Shown in pieces: positions 53,816 to 64,000 of a stretch of 64,000 nt of DNA (positions are counted from its first letter, which is position 1; the number at the start of each line of letters is the position of its first letter). Origin of the DNA: Humidesulfovibrio sp. (GTDB lineage Bacteria; Desulfobacterota; Desulfovibrionia; Desulfovibrionales; Desulfovibrionaceae); the NCBI GenBank assembly GCA_031292175.1, contig JARLHQ010000032.1, forward strand, positions 62,001-126,000. The letters are read 5' to 3'. Both the position numbers and the translations under genes were made by a program. A model generated the notes under the pieces. That model was not told the origin of the DNA. It made no database searches and was given only the letters and a program-made list of their open reading frames with translations.

Positions 53816-54688
53816 CTAGGCCTTCTTTTTCCGTCCGCCTGCGCGCTTGGCTGTGTTGCCCACGGGCGGGCGCACGCAGCAGGCCTTGTCCGCGCCGGTG
53901 ACGCGCCAGCGCCAGGGCAGACCGCCAGCCTCCAGGGCCATCAAGGACTCCAGCTCGCGCACATTGCCGGGGAAGGCGTGGTTCGCCAAACGGCCGGCCA
54001 GGCTTTCCAGGCTCTTGAGCGAGGCCGTGCGCGAGGTCTTGAGCCGGGAGAAGTAGGCCACCAGCGCGGGGATGTCCTCCTTGCGCTCGCGCAGGGGCGG
54101 CACATGGATGTGCCGGAAGCGCTCCAGGAATTCCGGCAGCAGCGCTCCGGGCGCAAGCAGCAGCCTGCGGGGGGTATTGGTGGTGCAGATGAACTGGCGC
54201 GGCCCGATGTCGCCGCTTCCTGCGGCCTGCTCGTCCCAGAGGGCCATCAGTCTTTGCTGCACGGCGGTCGGCAGATCGCCCATCTCTTCCAGCACGAGTG
54301 TGCCGCCCGAGGCCTCCTCGATCAGCGCGCGTGGCGTGCCCTCGTCCGGGGAAGGGCTGTCTGGGCCGAAGATCCGCTCCAGCAGCATCCGCGCGTCCAG
54401 CCCGGCCGTGAGGTGCGAGACAAAGGGCGCGTACGGGTCGCCACTGGCGTGGATGAAGCGGCTGAGCAGGCTCTTGCCCACGCCCGTCTCCCCGGTGAGC
54501 AGCACCGGCGCGGGCGCGTCGGCCAGGACCCGGCACAGGGCGACGATGGCGCGCATGGTCTCGTGGCAGACCACGAGGGCCAGGTGGTCCTCCAGGGGGA
54601 TGATCTCGCGCTGCGTGAACCAATCCGGCAGACTGGAGAGCGGATCGTTTTCCTCGGGTGGAATTTGGGATTCGGGCGTGTCTTTCAT
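53816..54688 (-). CDS. AAA+ protein related to sigma-54 activators but lacking the GAFTGA loop
   Basis: The 290-residue protein keeps the sigma-54 interaction ATPase framework: Walker A GETGVGKS (66-73), [13 protein letters not shown] in the Walker B position (usual LDEIG), a sensor region FICTTNTP, and PGNVREL (240-246). The GAFTGA loop is absent; [12 protein letters not shown] (106-117) stands there. There is no receiver, GAF or Fis domain; the C-terminus is basic (GGRKKKA). It cannot be expected to open sigma-54 promoters. No ribosome site precedes the ATG. It lies 181 bp downstream of the response regulator on the same strand. Confidence 0.82.
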
Positions 54689-54869: not shown

Positions 54870-56213
54870 TTAGTCGAGATTGAACTGCTTGAGTTTGCGC
54901 CATAAAGTGGTCCGGGGCACGTCGAGAATCTGCGCGGCCAGGCTCTTGTTGTGGCCCGTGGACTTGAGCACGCGGGCGATGTGCTGGCGCTCAAGTTCCT
55001 CCAGGCTTACCAGGGGCTCGCCGCCCGCCGCGCCGCCCGCCGCCTGCTGGAGCTCCGGGGGCAGATCCTCCACGGAGAACACCTCCGAGTCGCACAGGGC
55101 CACGCCGCGCTCCACGATGTTCTCCAGTTCGCGCACGTTGCCCGGGCACTCGTAGCGCGTCAGTATCTGCAGGGCCTGTGGGCTCACCTCGCGCACGGTC
55201 TTGTGAAAGAGCAGGCTGTACTTGTCGATGAAATGCCGCACGAGCAGGGGAATATCCTCCCTGCGCTCGGCGAGCGACGGCAGGACGATGCTCACCACGT
55301 TCAGCCGGTAGAACAGATCCCCTCGGAACACGCCGTCGGCGATGTCCTGTTTCAGGTCGCGGTTGGTGGCGGCTATGACCCGGATGTCCAGGTCCACGGG
55401 CCGCGTGCCGCCCACGCGCAAAATGCGCCGCTCCTGGATCACATGCAGGAGCTTGACCTGCATGGAGGGCGGCATCTCCCCGATTTCGTCCAGAAACACC
55501 GTGCCGCCTCCGGCGGATTCCAAAAGCCCCACGCGCGTGGCCGCGGCCCCGGTAAATGCGCCCTTCTCGTAGCCGAACAGCTCGCTGGCGATGAGTTCTT
55601 CCGTGAAACCGCCGCAGTTGAAGGACACGAAGGTCTGGTTTTTGCGCGAAGAAAGTTTGTGGATGGCCCTGGCCACCAGGGCCTTGCCCGTGCCGCTGGG
55701 ACCCTGGATGAGCACGTTGCAGTTCACCGGCGCGACCTTGCGCACCAGTTCAAACACCCCGCGCATGGGCGCGCTGGCCCCGATCATGGACTCCAGGCCC
55801 GTCTCCTCGCGCAGGGCCTGACGCAGCTGGCGGTTGGCCCGGCCCAGGGCCACCTTGTCGCACGCGCCCTTCACCAGGTTGCGTATTTCGGCCAGGCGCA
55901 CTGGCTTGGCCACGAAGTGGTACGCGCCGAGCTTGATGGCCTCAATGGCCGGTTCCAGGCTGCTGAACCCGGTGACCAGCACCACCTCCGTATCGACGCC
56001 CTGGGCCTTGACCCGCTTGAGGGCGGAAAGCCCGTCCATGCCGGGCAGGCGCAAATCGAGGAGCACTGCGTCGAAGGGCGCTTCGCTCTGGCGCTTCAGA
56101 AAGGATTCCGCGTCGCCGAAGGTCTCCACCTCGTAGCCGTCGCGCGAGAAGATCTCGCCCAGGCGCTTGCGGGCGGCGGATTCGTCGTCCACCACGGCGA
56201 GCCTACCCGGCAT
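54870..56213 (-). CDS. sigma-54-dependent response regulator (NtrC family)
   Basis: The 447-residue protein has a receiver (D9/D10, phospho-acceptor D53 in LLDLRLPGMDG, T81, K103), a complete AAA+ activator domain (Walker A GPSGTGKA at 170-177, GAFTGA at 217-222, Walker B VFLDEIGEMP) and a C-terminal Fis-type helix-turn-helix (HIARVLKSTGHNKSLAAQIL, then DVPRTTLWRKLK). The start at 56213 overlaps the kinase gene by 11 bp, so the two form a pair. It should activate sigma-54 promoters after phosphorylation. The three 17-bp dyads beside these genes are candidate sites. Confidence 0.95.
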   Translation of the reverse strand: MPGRLAVVDDESAARKRLGEIFSRDGYEVETFGDAESFLKRQSEAPFDAVLLDLRLPGMDGLSALKRVKAQGVDTEVVLVTGFSSLEPAIEAIKLGAYHFVAKPVRLAEIRNLVKGACDKVALGRANRQLRQALREETGLESMIGASAPMRGVFELVRKVAPVNCNVLIQGPSGTGKALVARAIHKLSSRKNQTFVSFNCGGFTEELIASELFGYEKGAFTGAAATRVGLLESAGGGTVFLDEIGEMPPSMQVKLLHVIQERRILRVGGTRPVDLDIRVIAATNRDLKQDIADGVFRGDLFYRLNVVSIVLPSLAERREDIPLLVRHFIDKYSLLFHKTVREVSPQALQILTRYECPGNVRELENIVERGVALCDSEVFSVEDLPPELQQAAGGAAGGEPLVSLEELERQHIARVLKSTGHNKSLAAQILDVPRTTLWRKLKQFNLD

Positions 56214-57663
56214 GGCCGATATTCTCATGGGGCTCCGGGCTGGCCGGAGCTTTGGGCAAAAAGACATGGAAGGACGTGCCCTTGCCCGGCTCGCTCTCCA
56301 CCTCGATGCGCCCGCTGTGGCGTTTGACGAGGGAGTAGGTGACAGCCAGGCCCAGCCCCGTGCCCTTGCCCACCTCCTTGGTGGTGTAGAAGGGCTCGAA
56401 GATGTGCGGCAGATTCTCCGGGGCGATGCCGATGCCGGTGTCGCGCACAGTCAGGCGCACGAATTCCCCGGCTTCGCGGGCGGAGACCTCGATGGTCCCT
56501 CCAGCCGGGGTGGCGGCGATGGCGTTCTGCAACAGGTTCACGAAGACCTGCTGCAGATGCCGCAGATTGCCGGAAATGAGCGCCAGGTCGTGCGGCACGT
56601 CCTCGCGCATCTTGAGGTCGGCGATGAGCAGCTGGTTCCTCACGAGGGCCAGCGTGCTCTTCAGCACCACGTCTGGCGCCAGCGCGCTGAATCCGGCCTT
56701 CTCCGTGCGCGAGAAGTCCAGCAGATTGCGCACGATCTCCCCGGCCCGCTCGGCCTGGCTCAAAATGTCCGTCACAACCTCGCGCCCCTCGTCGTCCAGG
56801 GACTCATCGTGCGTCTCCAACAGACTTTCAGCGGAGATCATGATATTGTTGATGGGGTTGTTGATCTCGTGCGCGATGCCCGCGGTGAGCGTGCCCAGGG
56901 CGGCGATCTTGCGCGCCTGGAGCAGGTTCTCCTGGTTGGCGGTGAGTTCAAGGGCCATGCGGTTCAGCGCGTCCAAAAGCCCCGCCACCTCCTCGATGTG
57001 GTGGCGGCCCTCGTTGTCCACGGGGCTGAAGTCGCCCTTGGCCACGCGCGCTGTAATCTGGCCGATCATGCCCAGGGGCTTGAGCAGGCTGTTGGCGATG
57101 ACCGTGATCAATATGGCCATGAACACAAGGAATATGCCCAGGTAGGCGAAGGGCAGGAGCGAAACATGGAAGATGGTCTTGTGGATGCGCGCGCGTTTGG
57201 TGGCGCTCAGTTTCTCGGCCATATCCACCAGCCGCTTGCCCGTGCCGCGCACGGACTCCCGTTCCGGCGACTTGGCCTCGCTGATGGCCGCGAACTCGCG
57301 CCGGTACTGGGCCAGCGTCTGCCGGAAGTCTTCCAGCGTTGCCGGGCCCGACACCCGGGCGATGTCTCCGGCCAGGCCGGTGACGGCCACGTCGGCCTTG
57401 TCCAGATAGTTCATGCCCTCGCGCTGGCTTTCCACTCCGCCATAGATGAGCAGGTTCTTTTCGAAACGGCGGGCTTCCAGTATGGAGTTGAACAGATCGT
57501 CGTAGCGTTCGGAGAGGTTCAGGCGTTCGCGCACGGCGGCCAAGGTCAGGACGTTCAGCAGCGTGAGGCCGCAGGCCACCAGGAAGGCCACCAGGAAGAG
57601 CGTGAGGATCTTGCCCTTGATGGAGTTGAAAGAAATCCTGAAGCGCTGCGCGGTGCCCGCCAT
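56203..57663 (-). CDS. membrane sensor histidine kinase
   Basis: The 486-residue kinase has helices at about 18-42 and 168-192 enclosing an all-helical periplasmic domain of about 125 residues, then HAMP (about 193-245), HisKA with H265 in TLTAGIAHEINNPINN, and HATPase (DTGIGIAPENL, GTGLGLAVTYSLV). The helical sensor resembles four-helix-bundle ligand domains. The HENNP-type box is typical of NtrB-like kinases for sigma-54 regulators. It is divergent from the TauE operon, with 413 bp between the starts. Confidence 0.94.
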   Translation of the reverse strand: MAGTAQRFRISFNSIKGKILTLFLVAFLVACGLTLLNVLTLAAVRERLNLSERYDDLFNSILEARRFEKNLLIYGGVESQREGMNYLDKADVAVTGLAGDIARVSGPATLEDFRQTLAQYRREFAAISEAKSPERESVRGTGKRLVDMAEKLSATKRARIHKTIFHVSLLPFAYLGIFLVFMAILITVIANSLLKPLGMIGQITARVAKGDFSPVDNEGRHHIEEVAGLLDALNRMALELTANQENLLQARKIAALGTLTAGIAHEINNPINNIMISAESLLETHDESLDDEGREVVTDILSQAERAGEIVRNLLDFSRTEKAGFSALAPDVVLKSTLALVRNQLLIADLKMREDVPHDLALISGNLRHLQQVFVNLLQNAIAATPAGGTIEVSAREAGEFVRLTVRDTGIGIAPENLPHIFEPFYTTKEVGKGTGLGLAVTYSLVKRHSGRIEVESEPGKGTSFHVFLPKAPASPEPHENIGHAG

Positions 57664-57704
57664 CGGCCTTCTCCTTTGCGTCGAAGCGGGTGTACCCTAA
57701 AATA

Positions 57705-57721
57705 TGTTTCATTTTGGCACA
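57705..57721. promoter_or_regulatory. 17-bp dyad, candidate regulator site 1
   Basis: TGTTTCATTTTGGCACA lies 42 bp upstream of the kinase start. It forms a partial dyad (TGTTTCA/TGGCACA) and recurs 35 bp away. Confidence 0.5.
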
Positions 57722-57739
57722 AGGGCTTTTCCGGCCACC

Positions 57740-57756
57740 TGTTTCATTTCGGGACA
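57740..57756. promoter_or_regulatory. 17-bp dyad, candidate regulator site 2
   Basis: TGTTTCATTTCGGGACA repeats site 1 with 14 of 17 bases identical, and its first base is 35 bp downstream of that of site 1. The tandem arrangement is typical of enhancer sites for NtrC-type activators. Confidence 0.5.
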
Positions 57757-58076
57757 GATGGCTTCGTGAAGGATTTTCAGCGTTGCGATTAGTGTAGTTG
57801 TTTTAATGGATTGCCGCGTTGTGACCCAACGGCCCCTGATTTGCTTTAGAGGCCGTGGGAGCGCGAAGGAAGCCCGCCGGTGGCGGACCAGACCGCGCTC
57901 CATTGTCTGGTGCATGCGCAAAGCGGCTTACGGGAGTGTCCCCGGAAGCGGTTTGACGCAGGGCGCAAACACGACTTTGCCGTTGGCGCGGGCCAGCGGC
58001 GGGCAAGCGGGGTAGGGAGCGCGGGGCCAAGGGCCAGTCGCACGGCGCGGCACCCACTACCCAGGAAGGATCGGAC

Positions 58077-59018
58077 ATGAGCATACCCATGGAACTGTAT
58101 CTGCCCATCGCGGGCAACAGCATCAACATCGTGGCCGTCTTCGGCCTGGGAGGGGTCGTTGGCCTGCTCTCGGGCATCTTCGGCGTCGGCGGCGGATTTT
58201 TGATGACCCCGCTGCTCATCATGATGGGCATTCCGCCCACCGTGGCCGCGGCGAGCGACTCGAACCAGATCGTTGGCGCATCCACCTCGGGTACGCTGGC
58301 GCATCTGCGTCTGGGCAACGTGGACGTGAAGATGGGCATCCTGCTGCTGGTGGGCGGTGTGGTCGGAGGAACCGCGGGCGTCGAGATCATCAAGCTGCTG
58401 CGGGCCATGGGCAATGCGGACTTCCTGATCAATGTCACCTACGTGCTGATGCTGGGCCTGGTGGGTGGCTACATGTTCGTGGAGAGCCTGCAGGCCATGC
58501 GCAAAGCCAAGGCCCCGGCGAAGCAGGAGCCGGAACGCCACGTCAAGTCCAGCGCCTTCGGCCGTCTGGTGGGCCTCCTGCCCTGGCAGATGGACTTCGT
58601 GCGCTCCGGCGTGCGCATGTCGCCGCTGCTGCCGCTGGTGCTGGGCGTCCTGGTGGGCATCCTGTCCGCGATCATGGGCGTGGGCGGCGGCTTCATCATG
58701 GTTCCGGTGATGGTGTACCTGCTGCGCATGCCCATGCACGTGGTGGTGGGCACCAGCCTGTTCCAGATTCTTTTCACCTGCATCAACGTCACGGTGATGC
58801 AGGCCAGCTCCAACCACACGGTCGACTTCGTGCTGGCGCTGATCCTGCTCGTGGGCTCGTCCCTGGGCGCGCAGATCGGGGCCATCCTGGGCCGGAAACT
58901 CGGCGGCGAACAGCTTAAGATTCTGCTGGCCTCCCTGGTTCTTGTGGTTATGTTCAAGATTCTCTACGAACTGCTTGCCACGCCGAATGTGCTGCTGGCT
59001 TACATCGGAGGTCACTAG
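58077..59018 (+). CDS. TauE/SafE-family anion exporter
   Basis: The 313-residue membrane protein has about eight helices in two repeats, each with the family GVGGGF motif (GIFGVGGGFLMTPLLIMMGI and IMGVGGGFIMVPVMVYLLRM). A cytoplasmic loop of about 35 residues (AMRKAKAPAKQEPERHVKSS) separates them. TauE/SafE proteins export sulfite, sulfoacetate or other organosulfur anions, which suits a sulfite-handling organism. AAGGA precedes the ATG. It leads an operon with the TIGR02186 gene, which overlaps its end closely (1-bp gap). Confidence 0.92.
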   Translation: MSIPMELYLPIAGNSINIVAVFGLGGVVGLLSGIFGVGGGFLMTPLLIMMGIPPTVAAASDSNQIVGASTSGTLAHLRLGNVDVKMGILLLVGGVVGGTAGVEIIKLLRAMGNADFLINVTYVLMLGLVGGYMFVESLQAMRKAKAPAKQEPERHVKSSAFGRLVGLLPWQMDFVRSGVRMSPLLPLVLGVLVGILSAIMGVGGGFIMVPVMVYLLRMPMHVVVGTSLFQILFTCINVTVMQASSNHTVDFVLALILLVGSSLGAQIGAILGRKLGGEQLKILLASLVLVVMFKILYELLATPNVLLAYIGGH

Positions 59019-59019
59019 C

Positions 59020-59769
59020 ATGAAGCGCGTCCTCACCCTGTTCCTGTTCCTGCTGCTGGCCCTGCCGTGTGCGTCCCCGGCCGCAAGCCTGGACTTTGGC
59101 ATGGCCCCCGGCGTCATCACCATCAGCACCTTCTACAATGGCACGAACGTGACCGTTTCGGGCGCGGTGCCCGATGGCGCCCAGGTCGTGGTGCGCTTCT
59201 CCGGCGTGCCGGAGAAGGTGGCCATGAAGCAGAAGGGCAAGGCCTTTGGGCTGTTGTGGATGAACATGAACACGCTGCACTTTTCTGGCGTGCCCAAGGT
59301 CTTCCTGGTGGAGTCCTCGGCCCCGCTTAAGGATCTGGGCGTCGCCGGTCCCAGCATCGGCCTCACCGGGCTGATGGACAAGATCGGCATCGAGCCCGAC
59401 ACGGCCGACCGGAGCATGCTCCTGCCTGAGCTGGTGAAGCTCAAGAAGAGCGAGGGCCTGTACCGTGAGGGGAACAGCGCCGTGACCCTGGGCGACAAGT
59501 CTGGCGAGCTGCGCCAGTTCACCGCCAAGATGGCCATACCCTCCCGCCTGTCTCCGGGCAGCTACGCCCTGGAGGTCTTCGCCGTGAAGGATGGCGTCAT
59601 CCTGGCCCAGGCCTCCCAGCCGCTGGATGCCAAGATGACCGGCATTCCTGCCCTTATGGCTGATCTGGCCTTCAACCACGCGGTGTGGTACGGCATCCTG
59701 GCCTCGGTCATCGCCATCATGGCTGGTCTTGGCATCGGACTCGTGTTCCAGAGCAAGGGAGCGCATTAG
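59020..59769 (+). CDS. TIGR02186 family membrane protein
   Basis: The 249-residue protein has a signal peptide (LTLFLFLLLALPCASPAASL), a periplasmic beta-rich domain (about 22-215) and one C-terminal membrane helix (about 223-243; VWYGILASVIAIMAGLGIGL). It matches TIGR02186/Alph_Pro_TM, which is often found next to TauE/SafE genes, as here. It probably assists or modulates the exporter from the periplasmic side. Its function is not established. Confidence 0.83.
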   Translation: MKRVLTLFLFLLLALPCASPAASLDFGMAPGVITISTFYNGTNVTVSGAVPDGAQVVVRFSGVPEKVAMKQKGKAFGLLWMNMNTLHFSGVPKVFLVESSAPLKDLGVAGPSIGLTGLMDKIGIEPDTADRSMLLPELVKLKKSEGLYREGNSAVTLGDKSGELRQFTAKMAIPSRLSPGSYALEVFAVKDGVILAQASQPLDAKMTGIPALMADLAFNHAVWYGILASVIAIMAGLGIGLVFQSKGAH

Positions 59770-59775
59770 CACGTT

Positions 59776-62352
59776 ATGGCATTGACGCGGTTCACAGACA
59801 TATTCGCTTGGGTATGGCGCAGGTTGCAGGGCAAGCCCCCTGTGCCTTTCTCCGCGCTTTATAAGAAGTTCAAGGGCATCCTGGAGCGGCACAACACCAT
59901 CCTGGAGCTCATTGGCGACATGGGCGACAAGCTCGGCGGCGACTATGTCTTTGACCGGCAATATATCCTCGACTCCTGCGAGAGGCTTGGCGATCAGGTC
60001 TTCAAGCTCATCAGCGACCTGAACCTGCTGTGCCAGGGCAAGAACGTGGCCCTGTTCACGGCGTTCGAACGCATCCAGTTCCGCGTGCGCGAGGAGCTGG
60101 CCGGACGCCGGGTCCTTTCGCGCACGGATCATATCCTGCCCCTGTCCGAACTGACGCACGACCTGGCGGACGAGGGCGGCAACAAGATGACCAGCCTGGG
60201 CGACATCAAGAACATCTTGGGCTTTAACACCCCGGACGGCTTCGTCGTCACCGCCGGGGCCTATTTCGAGGCCATGCAACGCGCCGGGCTGCGCAAGCCC
60301 GTTGCCGAGACCATCCGCGCCCTGTGCGCAAGCGGTGGGCAGGATTTGGCCGAGCAGGCCCGCGCCCTGCGCCAGTCCATCATGGACATGCCGCTGCCCC
60401 GGGAGCTTTGCCGGGCTGTGGAGCAGGCCGCCCGGGGGCTTGCGGGTGACAAGCCGCTCTTCCTGGCCGTGCGCTCCAGCGCCTGGGACGAGGACAGCGA
60501 ATCGAGCTTCGCGGGCATGTACGAGACCGTGCTCGGCGTGGCGCCGGCGGACATCCTGCCCGCCTACCGCCGGGTGCTGGCCAGTCTGTTCTGCGAGGAG
60601 GCCCTGCGCTACCGCCTGCACCATGAGCTCTGCGCCGAGGAACCGGCCATGGCCGTGGGCGTGATGCCCATGGTGGACGCGCTGGTGAGCGGCGGACTCT
60701 ACACCTACGCGCCGCTCCAGGAGCAGGACCAGGCCATGGTGGTCAGCGCGGCCTGGGGGCTGGGAAAGCCCATCGTGGATGGCACCGCCGAGACCGACAC
60801 GTACATCCTGCGGCGCGAACCGCCGCACGAACTGCTCTCCTCGGACATCGCGGACAAGTCGACGCGCCTGGTGCTCGACGCAAGCGGGGGCACCCGCACC
60901 GAGGCCGTGCCCGAGGCCGAGCGCGCCACGCCCTGCCTCTCCGCCGCGCAGCTGACCCTGCTGGCCAAGACGGCCATGGCCCTGGAGCATTTTTTCAAGC
61001 GTCCCCTGGACGTGGAGTGGGCCATCACGCCGGAGGGCGGACTGGTGGTGCTCCAAGCCCGTCCCCTGTCCATCCGGCCCAACGCCTGCGCGCAGACCGT
61101 GGACGCGTCCGAGGCCGTCAAGGGCGTGCCCGTGCTGATCTCCGGCCGGGGCGTCACGGCCATGGGCGGGGTGTCCGCCGGGCCCGTGCACCTGATGACC
61201 GAGGGCGAGGACTTGGCCGACTTCCCGTATGGGGCCATCCTCGTGTCCCGCCACTCCTCGCCGCGCTACGCCAAGGTCATGCCCAAGTGCCGGGGCATCA
61301 TCACGGACGTGGGCTCGGCCACGGGGCACATGGCGACCATCGCCCGCGAACTGCGCGTGCCCACGCTGGTGCAGACGGGCAGCGCCACGCGCACCCTGCG
61401 CGAGGGCCAGGAGATCACCCTCGACGCCGACCACCAGGTGGTCTACGAGGGCGTGGTGGACGCCCTGTGCCGCTTCGAACTGGTGCGCGAGGACGTGTTT
61501 GAGGAATCCTGGGAGTACCGCACGCTGAAGCGCGTGCTCAAGCACATCAGCCCGCTCACTCTGCTCGACCCCAAGAGCGATGCCTTTGCGCCGGAATCGT
61601 GCCGGACCTTTCACGACATCGCCCGCTACGTGCACCAGCGCGCTGTGGACAAGCTGGGCTCCCTCGCTGAGACGCACCGGGAACTGCGCGACAGCGCCCC
61701 GCGCAGGCTCGTCACCAAGTTGCCGCTGGGTCTTACGGTGATTGATGTGGAGGGCGGCCTGGACCCGGCCGCGGGTGAGGACGCGAACGAGTCCGACATC
61801 CGCTGCCGTCCGCTCAAAGCGCTCATGGAGGGTATGAACGTCTCCGGCATGTGGGAGACCAGCCCTGTGGCCGTGGACATGGGCAGCTTCATGTCGAGCG
61901 TCACCAAGACCTTCGGGGCCGAGGCCTCCCACCCCTCGCGCATGGGGCGCAACCTGGCGGTCATCTCCCGTGAGTACTTGAACCTCCACCTGCGCCTGGG
62001 GTATCATTTCACCGTGGTTGACGCTTTCCTGGGCGGCTCGGTGAACGACAACTCCATCGCCTTCCGGTTCATGGGCGGGGTGACGGACCTCTCCCGCCGC
62101 TCCCGCCGGGCCAGCCTGGTGGCGGGCATCCTGGAACAGTTCGATTTTATGGTGGAGATCAAGGGCGACATGGTCACGGGGCGCATCAAGAAGCACCCCA
62201 CCAGAACCATGCTGGAGAAGATGTTCATGCTGGGCTGCCTCATCGGTTACACCCGCCAACTGGACGCCAAGCTTGACTCCGAGGGCGCCGTCGCGCTCTA
62301 CATGGACCTATTTCTGCAACGCATCACAGCACTAAGGGAGACGCGAGAATGA
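59776..62352 (+). CDS. PEP-synthase-like ATP-grasp and phosphohistidine swivel protein with a novel C-terminal domain
   Basis: The 858-residue cytoplasmic protein begins with a helical region (1-145; LGGDYVFD at 53-60). An ATP-grasp domain follows (about 147-432; AVRSSAWDEDSESSFAGMYE at 231-250, VEWAITPEGGLVVLQARPL at 413-431), then a swivelling domain (about 455-560; TDVGSATGHMATIARELRVP at 510-529, with H518 as likely phospho-acceptor; the usual GGxTSH is GSATGH). Where PEP synthase has its PEP/pyruvate barrel, residues 565-858 form a region I do not recognise. ATP-dependent phosphorylation of H518 is plausible; the final acceptor is unknown. The next receiver gene overlaps its stop. Confidence 0.85.
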   Translation: MALTRFTDIFAWVWRRLQGKPPVPFSALYKKFKGILERHNTILELIGDMGDKLGGDYVFDRQYILDSCERLGDQVFKLISDLNLLCQGKNVALFTAFERIQFRVREELAGRRVLSRTDHILPLSELTHDLADEGGNKMTSLGDIKNILGFNTPDGFVVTAGAYFEAMQRAGLRKPVAETIRALCASGGQDLAEQARALRQSIMDMPLPRELCRAVEQAARGLAGDKPLFLAVRSSAWDEDSESSFAGMYETVLGVAPADILPAYRRVLASLFCEEALRYRLHHELCAEEPAMAVGVMPMVDALVSGGLYTYAPLQEQDQAMVVSAAWGLGKPIVDGTAETDTYILRREPPHELLSSDIADKSTRLVLDASGGTRTEAVPEAERATPCLSAAQLTLLAKTAMALEHFFKRPLDVEWAITPEGGLVVLQARPLSIRPNACAQTVDASEAVKGVPVLISGRGVTAMGGVSAGPVHLMTEGEDLADFPYGAILVSRHSSPRYAKVMPKCRGIITDVGSATGHMATIARELRVPTLVQTGSATRTLREGQEITLDADHQVVYEGVVDALCRFELVREDVFEESWEYRTLKRVLKHISPLTLLDPKSDAFAPESCRTFHDIARYVHQRAVDKLGSLAETHRELRDSAPRRLVTKLPLGLTVIDVEGGLDPAAGEDANESDIRCRPLKALMEGMNVSGMWETSPVAVDMGSFMSSVTKTFGAEASHPSRMGRNLAVISREYLNLHLRLGYHFTVVDAFLGGSVNDNSIAFRFMGGVTDLSRRSRRASLVAGILEQFDFMVEIKGDMVTGRIKKHPTRTMLEKMFMLGCLIGYTRQLDAKLDSEGAVALYMDLFLQRITALRETRE

Positions 62353-62795
62353 CACCCGACGCCATCGAGACCCCGGGCAACGTTCCGGAAGAAGCTCCGG
62401 GCGGTGAGGCGGCAAAGCGCAAGACCAGCATCCTGGTGCTCGATGATGAGCCCATCGTGTGTAAGCGGCTCAAGCCTTTCTTCCAAAAGGCGGGTTATGA
62501 GGTGGAGGCCTTCAATCAGCCCTTTGAGGCCCTGGCGCGCATCGAGGCGCGCCGTTTCGACGTGGTCATCACCGATCTCAAGATGGAGGGTCTGGACGGG
62601 CTGTCCTTCCTGGGCAAGGTGAAGGCCCTGCACCCGGACACGGACGTCATCCTCATCACCGGGTTCGCCACCATGGAGACCGCCCGGCAGTCCTTCCGCA
62701 AGGGCGTGTTCGACTGCGTGGCCAAGCCCTTCAAGCTGGCGGAACTCCTGGACGGTGTGCGCCGCATCGAAAAGGAGCGGGGGCTCGTCCCCTAG
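62349..62795 (+). CDS. single-domain response regulator in the TauE/PEP-synthase-like operon
   Basis: The 148-residue protein has a 25-residue acidic, proline-rich lead and a receiver domain with D32/D33, phospho-acceptor D76 (VVITDLKMEG), T104 (ILITGFATM) and K126 (VAKPF). It has no output domain. Its ATG overlaps the stop of the PEP-synthase-like gene as ATGA, so the two are translationally coupled, and the second paralogue starts 8 bp later. The divergent kinase is a candidate phosphodonor; the phosphohistidine of the neighbouring enzyme is another. Confidence 0.9.
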   Translation: MTPDAIETPGNVPEEAPGGEAAKRKTSILVLDDEPIVCKRLKPFFQKAGYEVEAFNQPFEALARIEARRFDVVITDLKMEGLDGLSFLGKVKALHPDTDVILITGFATMETARQSFRKGVFDCVAKPFKLAELLDGVRRIEKERGLVP

Positions 62796-62803
62796 CCGCG
62801 CGC

Positions 62804-64000
62804 ATGGCGGACGCTGGAGCCAGAACCTTGCTGGAAAGCGGCATGGAGCCGGGTGGCGTCCGGTTTCTTTTTCGCACCTTCAAACGCATCCTCGGACTGA
62901 ACACCCTGGCCCTGGAGCGCATGGCCCAAATGGACCGGGCGCTTGGCGGCGAATACGTCTTCGACAAATCCTTTCTTGAAAGCTCCGTGCGCGACATATG
63001 CCGCCTGACGCACCTGGTGGCCTACCACCTGAACGGCATGGCGGACGAGGCCCACGTTGCGCTCTACGACGCCTCCCTGGCGGTGAAGGACGCCCTGGAG
63101 GACATCCTTGCCGGCGGCATGGGCAGTTTGTCCGGGCGCCGGGTGCTGCCGTTTTCGGAGATCGGATGGGAGCTGGAGCCCCTGGTGGGGCTGGCCAACG
63201 TTGGCTTGGCCGTGCTGGGCCGCAAGATGGGCCTGCCCGCGCCGGACGGCTTCGCGGTGACGGTGACGGGGATGCGTGAGCTGGTCCAGTCCCAGGAGGC
63301 CGAGGAGGCCCGTGCCGAGGTGCTCCACGCCGTGGCGGAGCTGTTCGCGCGGCTGGGCGGCTCCCGGCGGTTGGAAATTTCTTTTGTCTCCGCCGGGCCG
63401 GAGGGAGCGGGCAAGATCCTGGCCGAAGCCGGTGCTGAGACGGCCGAGGACGCCCTGCGGGCCATCGCGCGCTTCGCTAAGGAGCATGCCGCTGCGGGCC
63501 CGCTGGCCGCCTGCGTGCGCCCGCGCCTCACGGGCGTGGTGCAGGGCACGCTGCAAACCTTGGCGCACGACCCGAGTCTGCCTCCGGCCATGCTGGCCGT
63601 GGCCGAGCCTCCCGGCGCGGTCCGGGACTCCGCGTCCGCGGGAGATGCTCAAGGCCGGGACGCCCTGGCGGACCGGTACTGGCTTTCGCGCACCGCGCCG
63701 CACATCCCCCTGCGCACCCGCCTGGCGGAAAAACAGCTGGCCGCTCCGTTGCCCGGCGGCGCGCCCCTCGACCTCTCGCGCGGGCGCATGCTGCGCGGCT
63801 CGGCCTGGCTCTTGCCGGAGCAGGCCGCGCTGTTGGCCCGGCTGGGGCTGGCGGCGGAGCGCGCCCTGGACAGCCCCTGTCTGCTCTCCTGGGCGCTCAC
63901 GGCGGAGGGGGATTTCCTGCTCACCGGCCTGGAGCCTGCGGAAACGGCCTATCCCGACTGGGCGGAAGACATGTGCGACGTGGAATCCGGCTGCCCCGGC
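62804..64000 (+). CDS. degenerate paralogue of the PEP-synthase-like protein, cut by window edge
   Basis: The 399 visible residues match the preceding 858-residue protein: FKRILGLNTLALERMAQMDR and LGGEYVFDKSFL (47-58) align with its N-terminus, GRRVLPFSEI with GRRVLSRTDHI, and PAPDGFAVT with TPDGFVVT. The ATP-grasp motif AVRSSA is lost; EISFVSAGPEGAG (191-203) stands in its place. The second Arg and nearby acidic residues are gone, so this copy probably cannot bind ATP normally. The swivelling domain lies beyond the window, so His loss cannot be tested here. It begins 8 bp after the receiver gene. Confidence 0.82.
   Translation, partial: MADAGARTLLESGMEPGGVRFLFRTFKRILGLNTLALERMAQMDRALGGEYVFDKSFLESSVRDICRLTHLVAYHLNGMADEAHVALYDASLAVKDALEDILAGGMGSLSGRRVLPFSEIGWELEPLVGLANVGLAVLGRKMGLPAPDGFAVTVTGMRELVQSQEAEEARAEVLHAVAELFARLGGSRRLEISFVSAGPEGAGKILAEAGAETAEDALRAIARFAKEHAAAGPLAACVRPRLTGVVQGTLQTLAHDPSLPPAMLAVAEPPGAVRDSASAGDAQGRDALADRYWLSRTAPHIPLRTRLAEKQLAAPLPGGAPLDLSRGRMLRGSAWLLPEQAALLARLGLAAERALDSPCLLSWALTAEGDFLLTGLEPAETAYPDWAEDMCDVESGCPG

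Follow-up and report, generated by a model that had tools for sequence, protein, structure and literature searches.

Why should relatives of phosphoenolpyruvate (PEP) synthase be encoded together with an anion transporter and a response-regulator receiver? The question is raised by an operon near the end of the Humidesulfovibrio sp. DNA analysed here (the window, 64,000 nucleotides, bases 62001-126000 of contig C20), taken from a genome of 2.6 Mb that is 81% complete. A TauE/SafE-family anion transporter (TauE), a membrane protein (Alph_Pro_TM), a PEP-synthase-like protein (PPS1), a single-domain receiver and two further paralogues (PPS2 and PPS3) lie in one line, opposite a divergent gene pair for a sensor histidine kinase (HK) and an NtrC-type regulator. 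The genes almost certainly form one unit. We tentatively read that unit, from its sequences, as a His phosphotransfer unit derived from PEP synthase that would work from protein to protein and control or power the transport of a sulfur anion by TauE, and give this reading slightly less than an even chance. No description of the operon was found in the papers searched, the nearest being a nitrate-sensitivity cluster reported by Korte et al. (PMC4001038).

Gene content and conservation of the operon

The operon is encoded on the plus strand. TauE (313 aa, 58077..59018) matches PF01925 (E 3.5e-47, 161.5 bits against a cut-off of 32.6), which it shares with the TauE/SafE sulfite/organosulfonate exporters, and is placed by family rather than by substrate or direction. 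The following gene (about 249 aa, 59020..59769, its ATG placed by counting in frame) encodes Alph_Pro_TM, which matches PF09608 (E 3.2e-44, 151.8 bits against a cut-off of 24.5) and by eye has a signal peptide and a C-terminal transmembrane segment. The first-pass annotation of the window had called it a TIGR02186 protein; the relationship is clear at the level of PF09608, whereas TIGR02186 itself (NCBIfam) scores below its threshold (72.5 bits, cut-off 255.25). No mention of TIGR02186 or PF09608 was found in the papers searched. PPS1 (858 aa, 59776..62352) is followed by the receiver (148 aa, 62349..62795, phospho-acceptor Asp76) and by PPS2, whose 5' part occupies 62804..64000 and whose whole gene (835 aa) ends at window coordinate 65311. 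From TauE to PPS2 the intergenic distances are 1, 6, -4 (an ATGA overlap) and 8 bp, as the first pass had claimed. In the sequence past the window end, PPS3 (883 aa) overlaps PPS2 by 4 bp, so that the second paralogue claimed earlier is present in a set that proved larger.

On the minus strand, with 413 bp between its start and that of TauE, lies the membrane sensor HK (486 aa, 56203..57663; HisKA and HATPase_c, with a HAMP match under its cut-off), and beyond it the sigma-54 regulator (465 aa, 54870..56267, likely with an internal start near 56213), which carries receiver, sigma-54 AAA+ and Fis helix-turn-helix domains. Both the gene list and Pfam agree with the divergent arrangement described before; the genes assigned to 56203-64000 were also right, but a start at 56203 omits most of the NtrC gene. 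Just downstream of the latter, an open reading frame (ORF) of 290 aa (53816-54688, minus strand) resembles by eye a sigma-54 AAA+ fragment.

Searching species-representative genomes with the PPS1 C-terminal domain gave 416 stretches with relatives. The best 80 loci were retained, and the conservation figures given here hold for these 80 PPS1-like loci. Gene profiles were built from earlier relatives, with loci L011, L056, L057 and L059 left out of profile building. The order TauE, Alph_Pro_TM, PPS1, receiver was kept in 80/80 loci, and where a gene was absent (TauE in 7, Alph_Pro_TM in 4 and the receiver in 1) a contig end accounted for it in every case. Under stricter score thresholds TauE was found in 70, Alph_Pro_TM in 74, PPS1 in 78 and the receiver in 79 of the 80 loci. 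The loci kept include those of Desulfovibrio, Desulfobulbus, Desulfosarcina, Syntrophobacteraceae and Desulfofervidaceae. Asp76 and Lys126 of the receiver are invariant in 80/80 sequences (79 loci and the window). Gene order and these two residues strongly support the earlier claim of a single unit, and the genes are not split apart in the relatives examined. Pairwise distances of the module proteins correlate (0.58-0.92), a result in keeping with joint inheritance that plain vertical descent would also predict. In the 198 Desulfobacterota genomes used below, at least 29 of 38 Alph_Pro_TM genes have their start no more than 4.5 kb from a listed PPS C-terminal domain.

Domains and active sites of the PEP-synthase-like proteins

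PPS1 consists of a helical N-terminal domain, an ATP-grasp domain (PPDK_N, PF01326) at residues 135-440 (E 3.3e-72), a mobile His (swivel) domain (PF00391) at 484-553 (E 1.9e-19) and a C-terminal part in which a Pfam search found no family beyond residue 553. The ATP-grasp part is 29% identical to 2ols; K137, R233, E414, Q427 and R429, whose catalytic roles we assume from PPDK and rifampin phosphotransferase (RPH), are all present, and in the alignment H518 matches the T-S/C-H motif His of solved PEP synthases. The likeness to PEP synthase (PpsA; 2ols, 9dae, 8a8e) lies in the ATP-grasp and swivel His domains. PPS1 differs from it by the extra helical domain and by a new domain of about 290 residues (about 565-858) instead of the PEP/pyruvate barrel, and PPS2 by the lack of an ATP site. 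The same two catalytic domains are joined to other acceptor domains in RPH and in the HpeHI, CreHI and phenylphosphate synthase dikinases, for none of which do we know of a receiver or TauE partner; in RPH the swivel motif lies near the C-terminus, whereas in PPS1 about 295 residues follow the swivel, and the third domain differs. PPS1 reached neither the PEP synthase equivalogs of NCBIfam (TIGR01418, 289.1 of 739.75 bits; NF005057, 300.5 of 598 bits) nor that of RPH (NF041857, 194.6 of 999 bits).

The first pass had rightly seen that the carbon-binding barrel is missing, but had put the receiver in its place; it is the new domain that stands where the barrel would be, with the receiver as an extra. 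It had also allowed that the C-terminal domain might turn out to be a known PEP/pyruvate fold. This was rejected after modelling and searching, since PF02896 was matched neither by PPS1 nor by 86 C-termini of the family and the AlphaFold2 model is not a barrel; in the 81%-complete genome PF02896 was matched only at another place (C3:49933). A Pfam relative of the domain was likewise rejected, because among the 86 members nine families gave one or two weak matches each (best E 0.0037). PDB sequence searches with the domain returned noise only (5cwv, E 0.37; 6cfz, E 0.48), and Foldseek with the model gave no confident structural match in the PDB. The entries 2plg (rank 1) and 4h5b (rank 5), presumably YbjN/secretion-chaperone-like folds, ExsC (3kxy, rank 21) and SchA (4g6t, rank 41) are matches too weak to build on. 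A domain search of PPS1 and PPS2 turned up neither HisKA nor HPt, and the regulatory kinase PF03618 had no match in the 81%-complete genome.

For the paralogues, 219 proteins longer than 690 aa gave 202 distinct sequences after removal of duplicates, and these were aligned; for the tree they were reduced by identity and coverage to 121, to which the window's was added (122 sequences), and the ATP-grasp columns were left out. The clades are clean, with support of 1.0 for module-type PPS1, 0.976 for PPS2 and 1.0 for PPS3. The PPS1 class (n=148) takes in other full-length paralogues; 145-148 of its 148 proteins keep any given ATP-site residue and 146 keep His518; in the 84 of module type, Arg233, Glu414 and Gln427 are kept in all and His518 in 83. 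All eight residues checked are kept in 27/27 PPS3. In PPS2 (n=27), Lys137 and Gln427 are retained in none, Glu414 in 1, Glu239 in 3, Arg233 in 4 and Arg429 in 9, and no member retains more than three of the six ATP-site residues, while His518 and Glu525 are present in 27/27. Identity follows the same pattern: the ATP-grasp part, the swivel and the C-terminal domain are 33% (with 76% of columns filled), 55% and 50% identical in PPS2, against 43%, 58% and 55% in PPS1 and 49%, 48% and 55% in PPS3. A PPS2 without an ATP site but with the phospho-acceptor His should therefore be charged by another protein, and this pattern is the best sequence argument for protein-to-protein phosphotransfer. The operon resembles the His-Asp-His phosphorelays (HK-receiver-HPt) in that its receiver gene stands between those of two His proteins, one ATP-competent and one ATP-site-dead, and it shares the swivel domain with enzyme I of the phosphotransferase system (PTS); it differs from the former in the absence of HisKA and HPt from PPS1 and PPS2, and the relay would here be one deduced from sequence.

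Related loci, distribution and the nitrate cluster

Among the matches listed, the PPS C-terminal domain occurs at six places in this genome and at 1-12 places per PPS-positive genome. Forty further PPS loci, one per genome, were fetched from the listed PPS matches and are not a random sample. TauE was found in the fetched stretch in 22/40, against 1.2 expected in those 676 kb from the 153 matches per 86.4 Mb in 24 listed PPS-bearing genomes; at least three kinds of TauE are involved, as distinguished by query proteins and not by a tree. A receiver lies within 300 bp of the PPS gene in 19/40 and an HK within 2.5 kb in 20/40, figures that have no background control and concern genes common in these genomes. 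Alph_Pro_TM adjoins TauE in four of the loci (L144, L147, L148 and L181). Ten stand-alone PPS loci were inspected by eye, their neighbours not being run against Pfam, and no shared partner was noticed. In seven loci (L169, L170, L171, L174, L185, L187 and L190) PPS adjoins a sigma-54 activator of 870-930 aa, divergent from a further kind of TauE; the one activator tested (L169) has a dCache match under its cut-off. Elsewhere in this genome (L012:4371-9208) a receiver, a TauE, a membrane-like protein of 242 aa with no Pfam match and a PPS of 735 aa (PPS5) stand together; PPS5 has the C-terminal domain, gives no mobile-domain match and has lost active-site residues, and relatives of the 242-aa protein recur beside TauE.

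The distribution of the family was surveyed in Desulfobacterota only. The PPS C-terminal domain was found in 78/198 genomes and dsrA (TIGR02064) in 100/198, with both in 73 (Fisher P 5e-25, not corrected for relatedness). The five genomes with PPS and without dsrA are 62-80% complete, and all 31 taxonomic families with PPS, among the matches listed, hold a dsrA-positive genome in the sample. The family is lacking from 27/100 dsrA-positive genomes, and dsr therefore does not require it. In several of these 27 the dsrA match has an internal stop and adjoins a second match; these seem to represent another dsr lineage.

Experimental data come from the cluster DVU0251-DVU0245 / Dde_0597-0605, which according to Korte et al. 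(PMC4001038) affects nitrate sensitivity in D. vulgaris and D. alaskensis G20 and contains TauE, a hypothetical protein, PtxB, an HK, a receiver, a PPS-like protein and a phosphatase. Like the window operon, it groups a TauE permease, a single receiver, an HK and a protein with PPDK_N and mobile domains; it differs by its PtxB-like binding protein and phosphatase and by listing no Alph_Pro_TM, and the window operon by its NtrC regulator and three PPS paralogues. Gene list and Pfam show that the window order is not PtxB-HK-receiver-PPS-phosphatase. That order, with a dual-specificity phosphatase at the end and a PPS that we call PPS4, was found in this genome near an end of C20 (L010:6431-13332), and DVU0246 is for this reason taken as a member of the PPS family; any TauE gene of L010 would lie past the contig end.

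According to the same paper (PMC4001038), isolated D. vulgaris strains with insertions in DVU0246 (PPS), DVU0247 (receiver), DVU0250 (hypothetical protein) and DVU0251 (TauE) grew equally with and without 100 mM nitrate. The phosphatase mutant (DVU0245) was inhibited by nitrate rather than resistant, and the mutant of the HK pseudogene had little or no advantage in preliminary data. On thiosulfate, G20 cluster mutants were mildly sick (unpublished data cited in that paper), and its authors proposed a leaky thiosulfate transporter. The export assumed by the first pass is made doubtful by the nitrate resistance of TauE, receiver and PPS mutants and by the mildly poorer growth of the G20 mutants on thiosulfate; because these data fit uptake better, uptake seems the more likely direction for TauE. 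TSUP proteins are described in PMC5840216 as abundant in sulfate-reducer genomes and as having functions that are not predictable from sequence. Word searches of papers on the D. vulgaris response regulators and sigma-54 regulome found no mention of TauE or PEP synthase, and one of the D. vulgaris mutant-library paper none of TauE or phosphoenolpyruvate.

Proposed mechanism, alternatives and upstream elements

We propose that the operon may serve dissimilatory sulfur reducers as a single unit for transport and signalling, with a sigma-54 promoter of TauE-Alph_Pro_TM-PPS1-receiver-PPS2-PPS3 that the HK and the NtrC regulator would activate. PPS1 (and PPS3) would load the swivel His from ATP, as in PEP synthase, and the phosphoryl group would go not to pyruvate but to protein partners, namely Asp76 of the receiver and/or the ATP-site-dead carrier PPS2. 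The new C-terminal domain may dock a partner, and the phosphorylation state would gate or power TauE/Alph_Pro_TM as a permease of a sulfur oxyanion, with uptake (thiosulfate- or sulfite-like) likelier than export. Phosphotransfer is plausible because PPS1 has an intact active site and PPS2, though its ATP site is dead, keeps an invariant swivel His; the promoter control, the His-to-Asp or His-to-His transfer, the effect on TauE, the anion and its direction are what we infer. A wider form, in which PEP-synthase-type swivel His residues exchange phosphate with a receiver Asp and an ATP-site-dead His carrier, as a new phosphotransfer system in which sulfate reducers run parallel relays, one to gate or power each TauE-type sulfur-anion permease, appears unlikely as a whole on present sequence evidence. 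If the D. vulgaris HK is truly a pseudogene, the receiver there may get its phosphate elsewhere, possibly from PPS, which is a hint only.

Several observations weigh against phosphotransfer of this kind. PPS2 is present in 31/80 and PPS3 in 25/80 loci (some of them cut), so that PPS2 is not a general requirement. In the module PPS1 of L138 (L138:8345-10906) His518 and Lys137 are both replaced, and PPS5 lacks the His in the alignment and has lost the Lys and the Arg; some members thus cannot be phosphorylated in this way. (In L138, PPS2 and PPS3 lie upstream of TauE.) Ten of the 40 paralogous loci have neither TauE in the stretch nor a receiver or HK within 2.5 kb. The link of DVU0246 to the family is taken from domain annotation and gene order rather than from aligning DVU0246, and polar effects on DVU0246 may arise from transposon insertions upstream of it. 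In PMC4001038, the G20 pool showed gains in nitrate for the HK and phosphatase mutants as well (2.34 and 2.08), and the former result speaks against a non-HK phosphate source for the receiver being general. Scores in the D. vulgaris pool were -5.82 for DVU0250 and 1.43 for DVU0248, and for these two genes pooled and isolated results disagree.

The main rival takes PPS1 and PPS3 as small-molecule dikinases. The C-terminal domain would bind a substrate (perhaps moved by TauE, or yielding the anion on breakdown), the receiver would be an allosteric switch phosphorylated by the HK, and PPS2 would be a subunit charged by its partner's ATP-grasp, as in split dikinases. PEP-synthase relatives with a swapped third domain (rifampin phosphotransferase, HpeHI, CreHI and phenylphosphate synthase) phosphorylate small molecules, as stated in PMC12167813, and because of this the new domain could bind a small substrate. 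Recurring neighbours of the module are a transporter, receivers, HKs and regulators, and no recurring substrate-pathway genes were seen beside it, within the reach of module-protein profiles and of the ten stand-alone loci viewed by eye; moreover, the 1-12 PPS matches per positive genome, several with their own TauE/receiver set, look like signalling. We regard a dikinase as a serious contender, though improbable on balance. In another reading, PPS proteins under the control of the receiver and HK would phosphorylate TauE/Alph_Pro_TM itself as ATP-dependent protein kinases; there would be no His-to-Asp relay but a PTS-like energised or gated transporter. The 22/40 paralogous loci with TauE near PPS, the phosphatase after PPS in L010 and the common phenotype of PPS, receiver and TauE mutants (PMC4001038) would suit such kinases. 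We nevertheless think them quite improbable, as Pfam finds no PTS-like acceptor domain in TauE or Alph_Pro_TM and the DVU0245 phosphatase mutant was not nitrate resistant, even though its G20 counterpart gained in the pool. Operon membership by itself is no proof of interaction, and the ten loci without TauE and nearby receiver or HK would also suit mere co-regulation of a sulfur-anion exporter with metabolic PEP-synthase relatives, without mechanistic coupling. An order kept in 80/80 loci, association with at least three kinds of TauE (by query proteins, as above), the missing pyruvate barrel and the phenotype shared by the mutants make this very improbable.

A candidate sigma-54 -24/-12 promoter (CGGCCCCTGATTTGCT) was found by pattern search at 57830..57845 on the plus strand. 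Its significance within the window alone was rejected (25 matches against 40 expected), and only recurrence in relatives counts: a relaxed -24/-12 pattern lies upstream of TauE in 45/71 leaders (counting that of the window), where single-base shuffles predict 1.2. There are two candidate NtrC enhancer sites of the form TGT-N11-ACA (57705..57721 and 57740..57756, plus strand), the first of which recurs as the same 17-mer upstream of TauE in L064; because the motif is not enriched across the 71 leaders (8 against 6.9 in shuffles), it is the match in a near relative that points to them. Under the stricter thresholds the HK was found in 52/80 and NtrC in 53/80 of the relatives' loci. Between the sigma-54 element and TauE, 34/46 leaders (L063-L142, e.g. 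L082, L066 and L068) hold an ORF of about 140 aa, two tested examples of which match PF00582 (Usp); the window's leader lacks it.

The movement and regulation of sulfite, thiosulfate and related anions in sulfate reducers are poorly known. A family nearly confined to dsrA-bearing genomes in the phylum sample, and repeatedly found beside TauE permeases, offers a testable handle on them, and would help to explain a nitrate-resistance locus that is relevant to the control of oil-field souring. The cluster looks like an undescribed means to switch or drive the transport of sulfur compounds. If swivel His residues do phosphorylate receivers, they would constitute a new type of kinase in two-component signalling.

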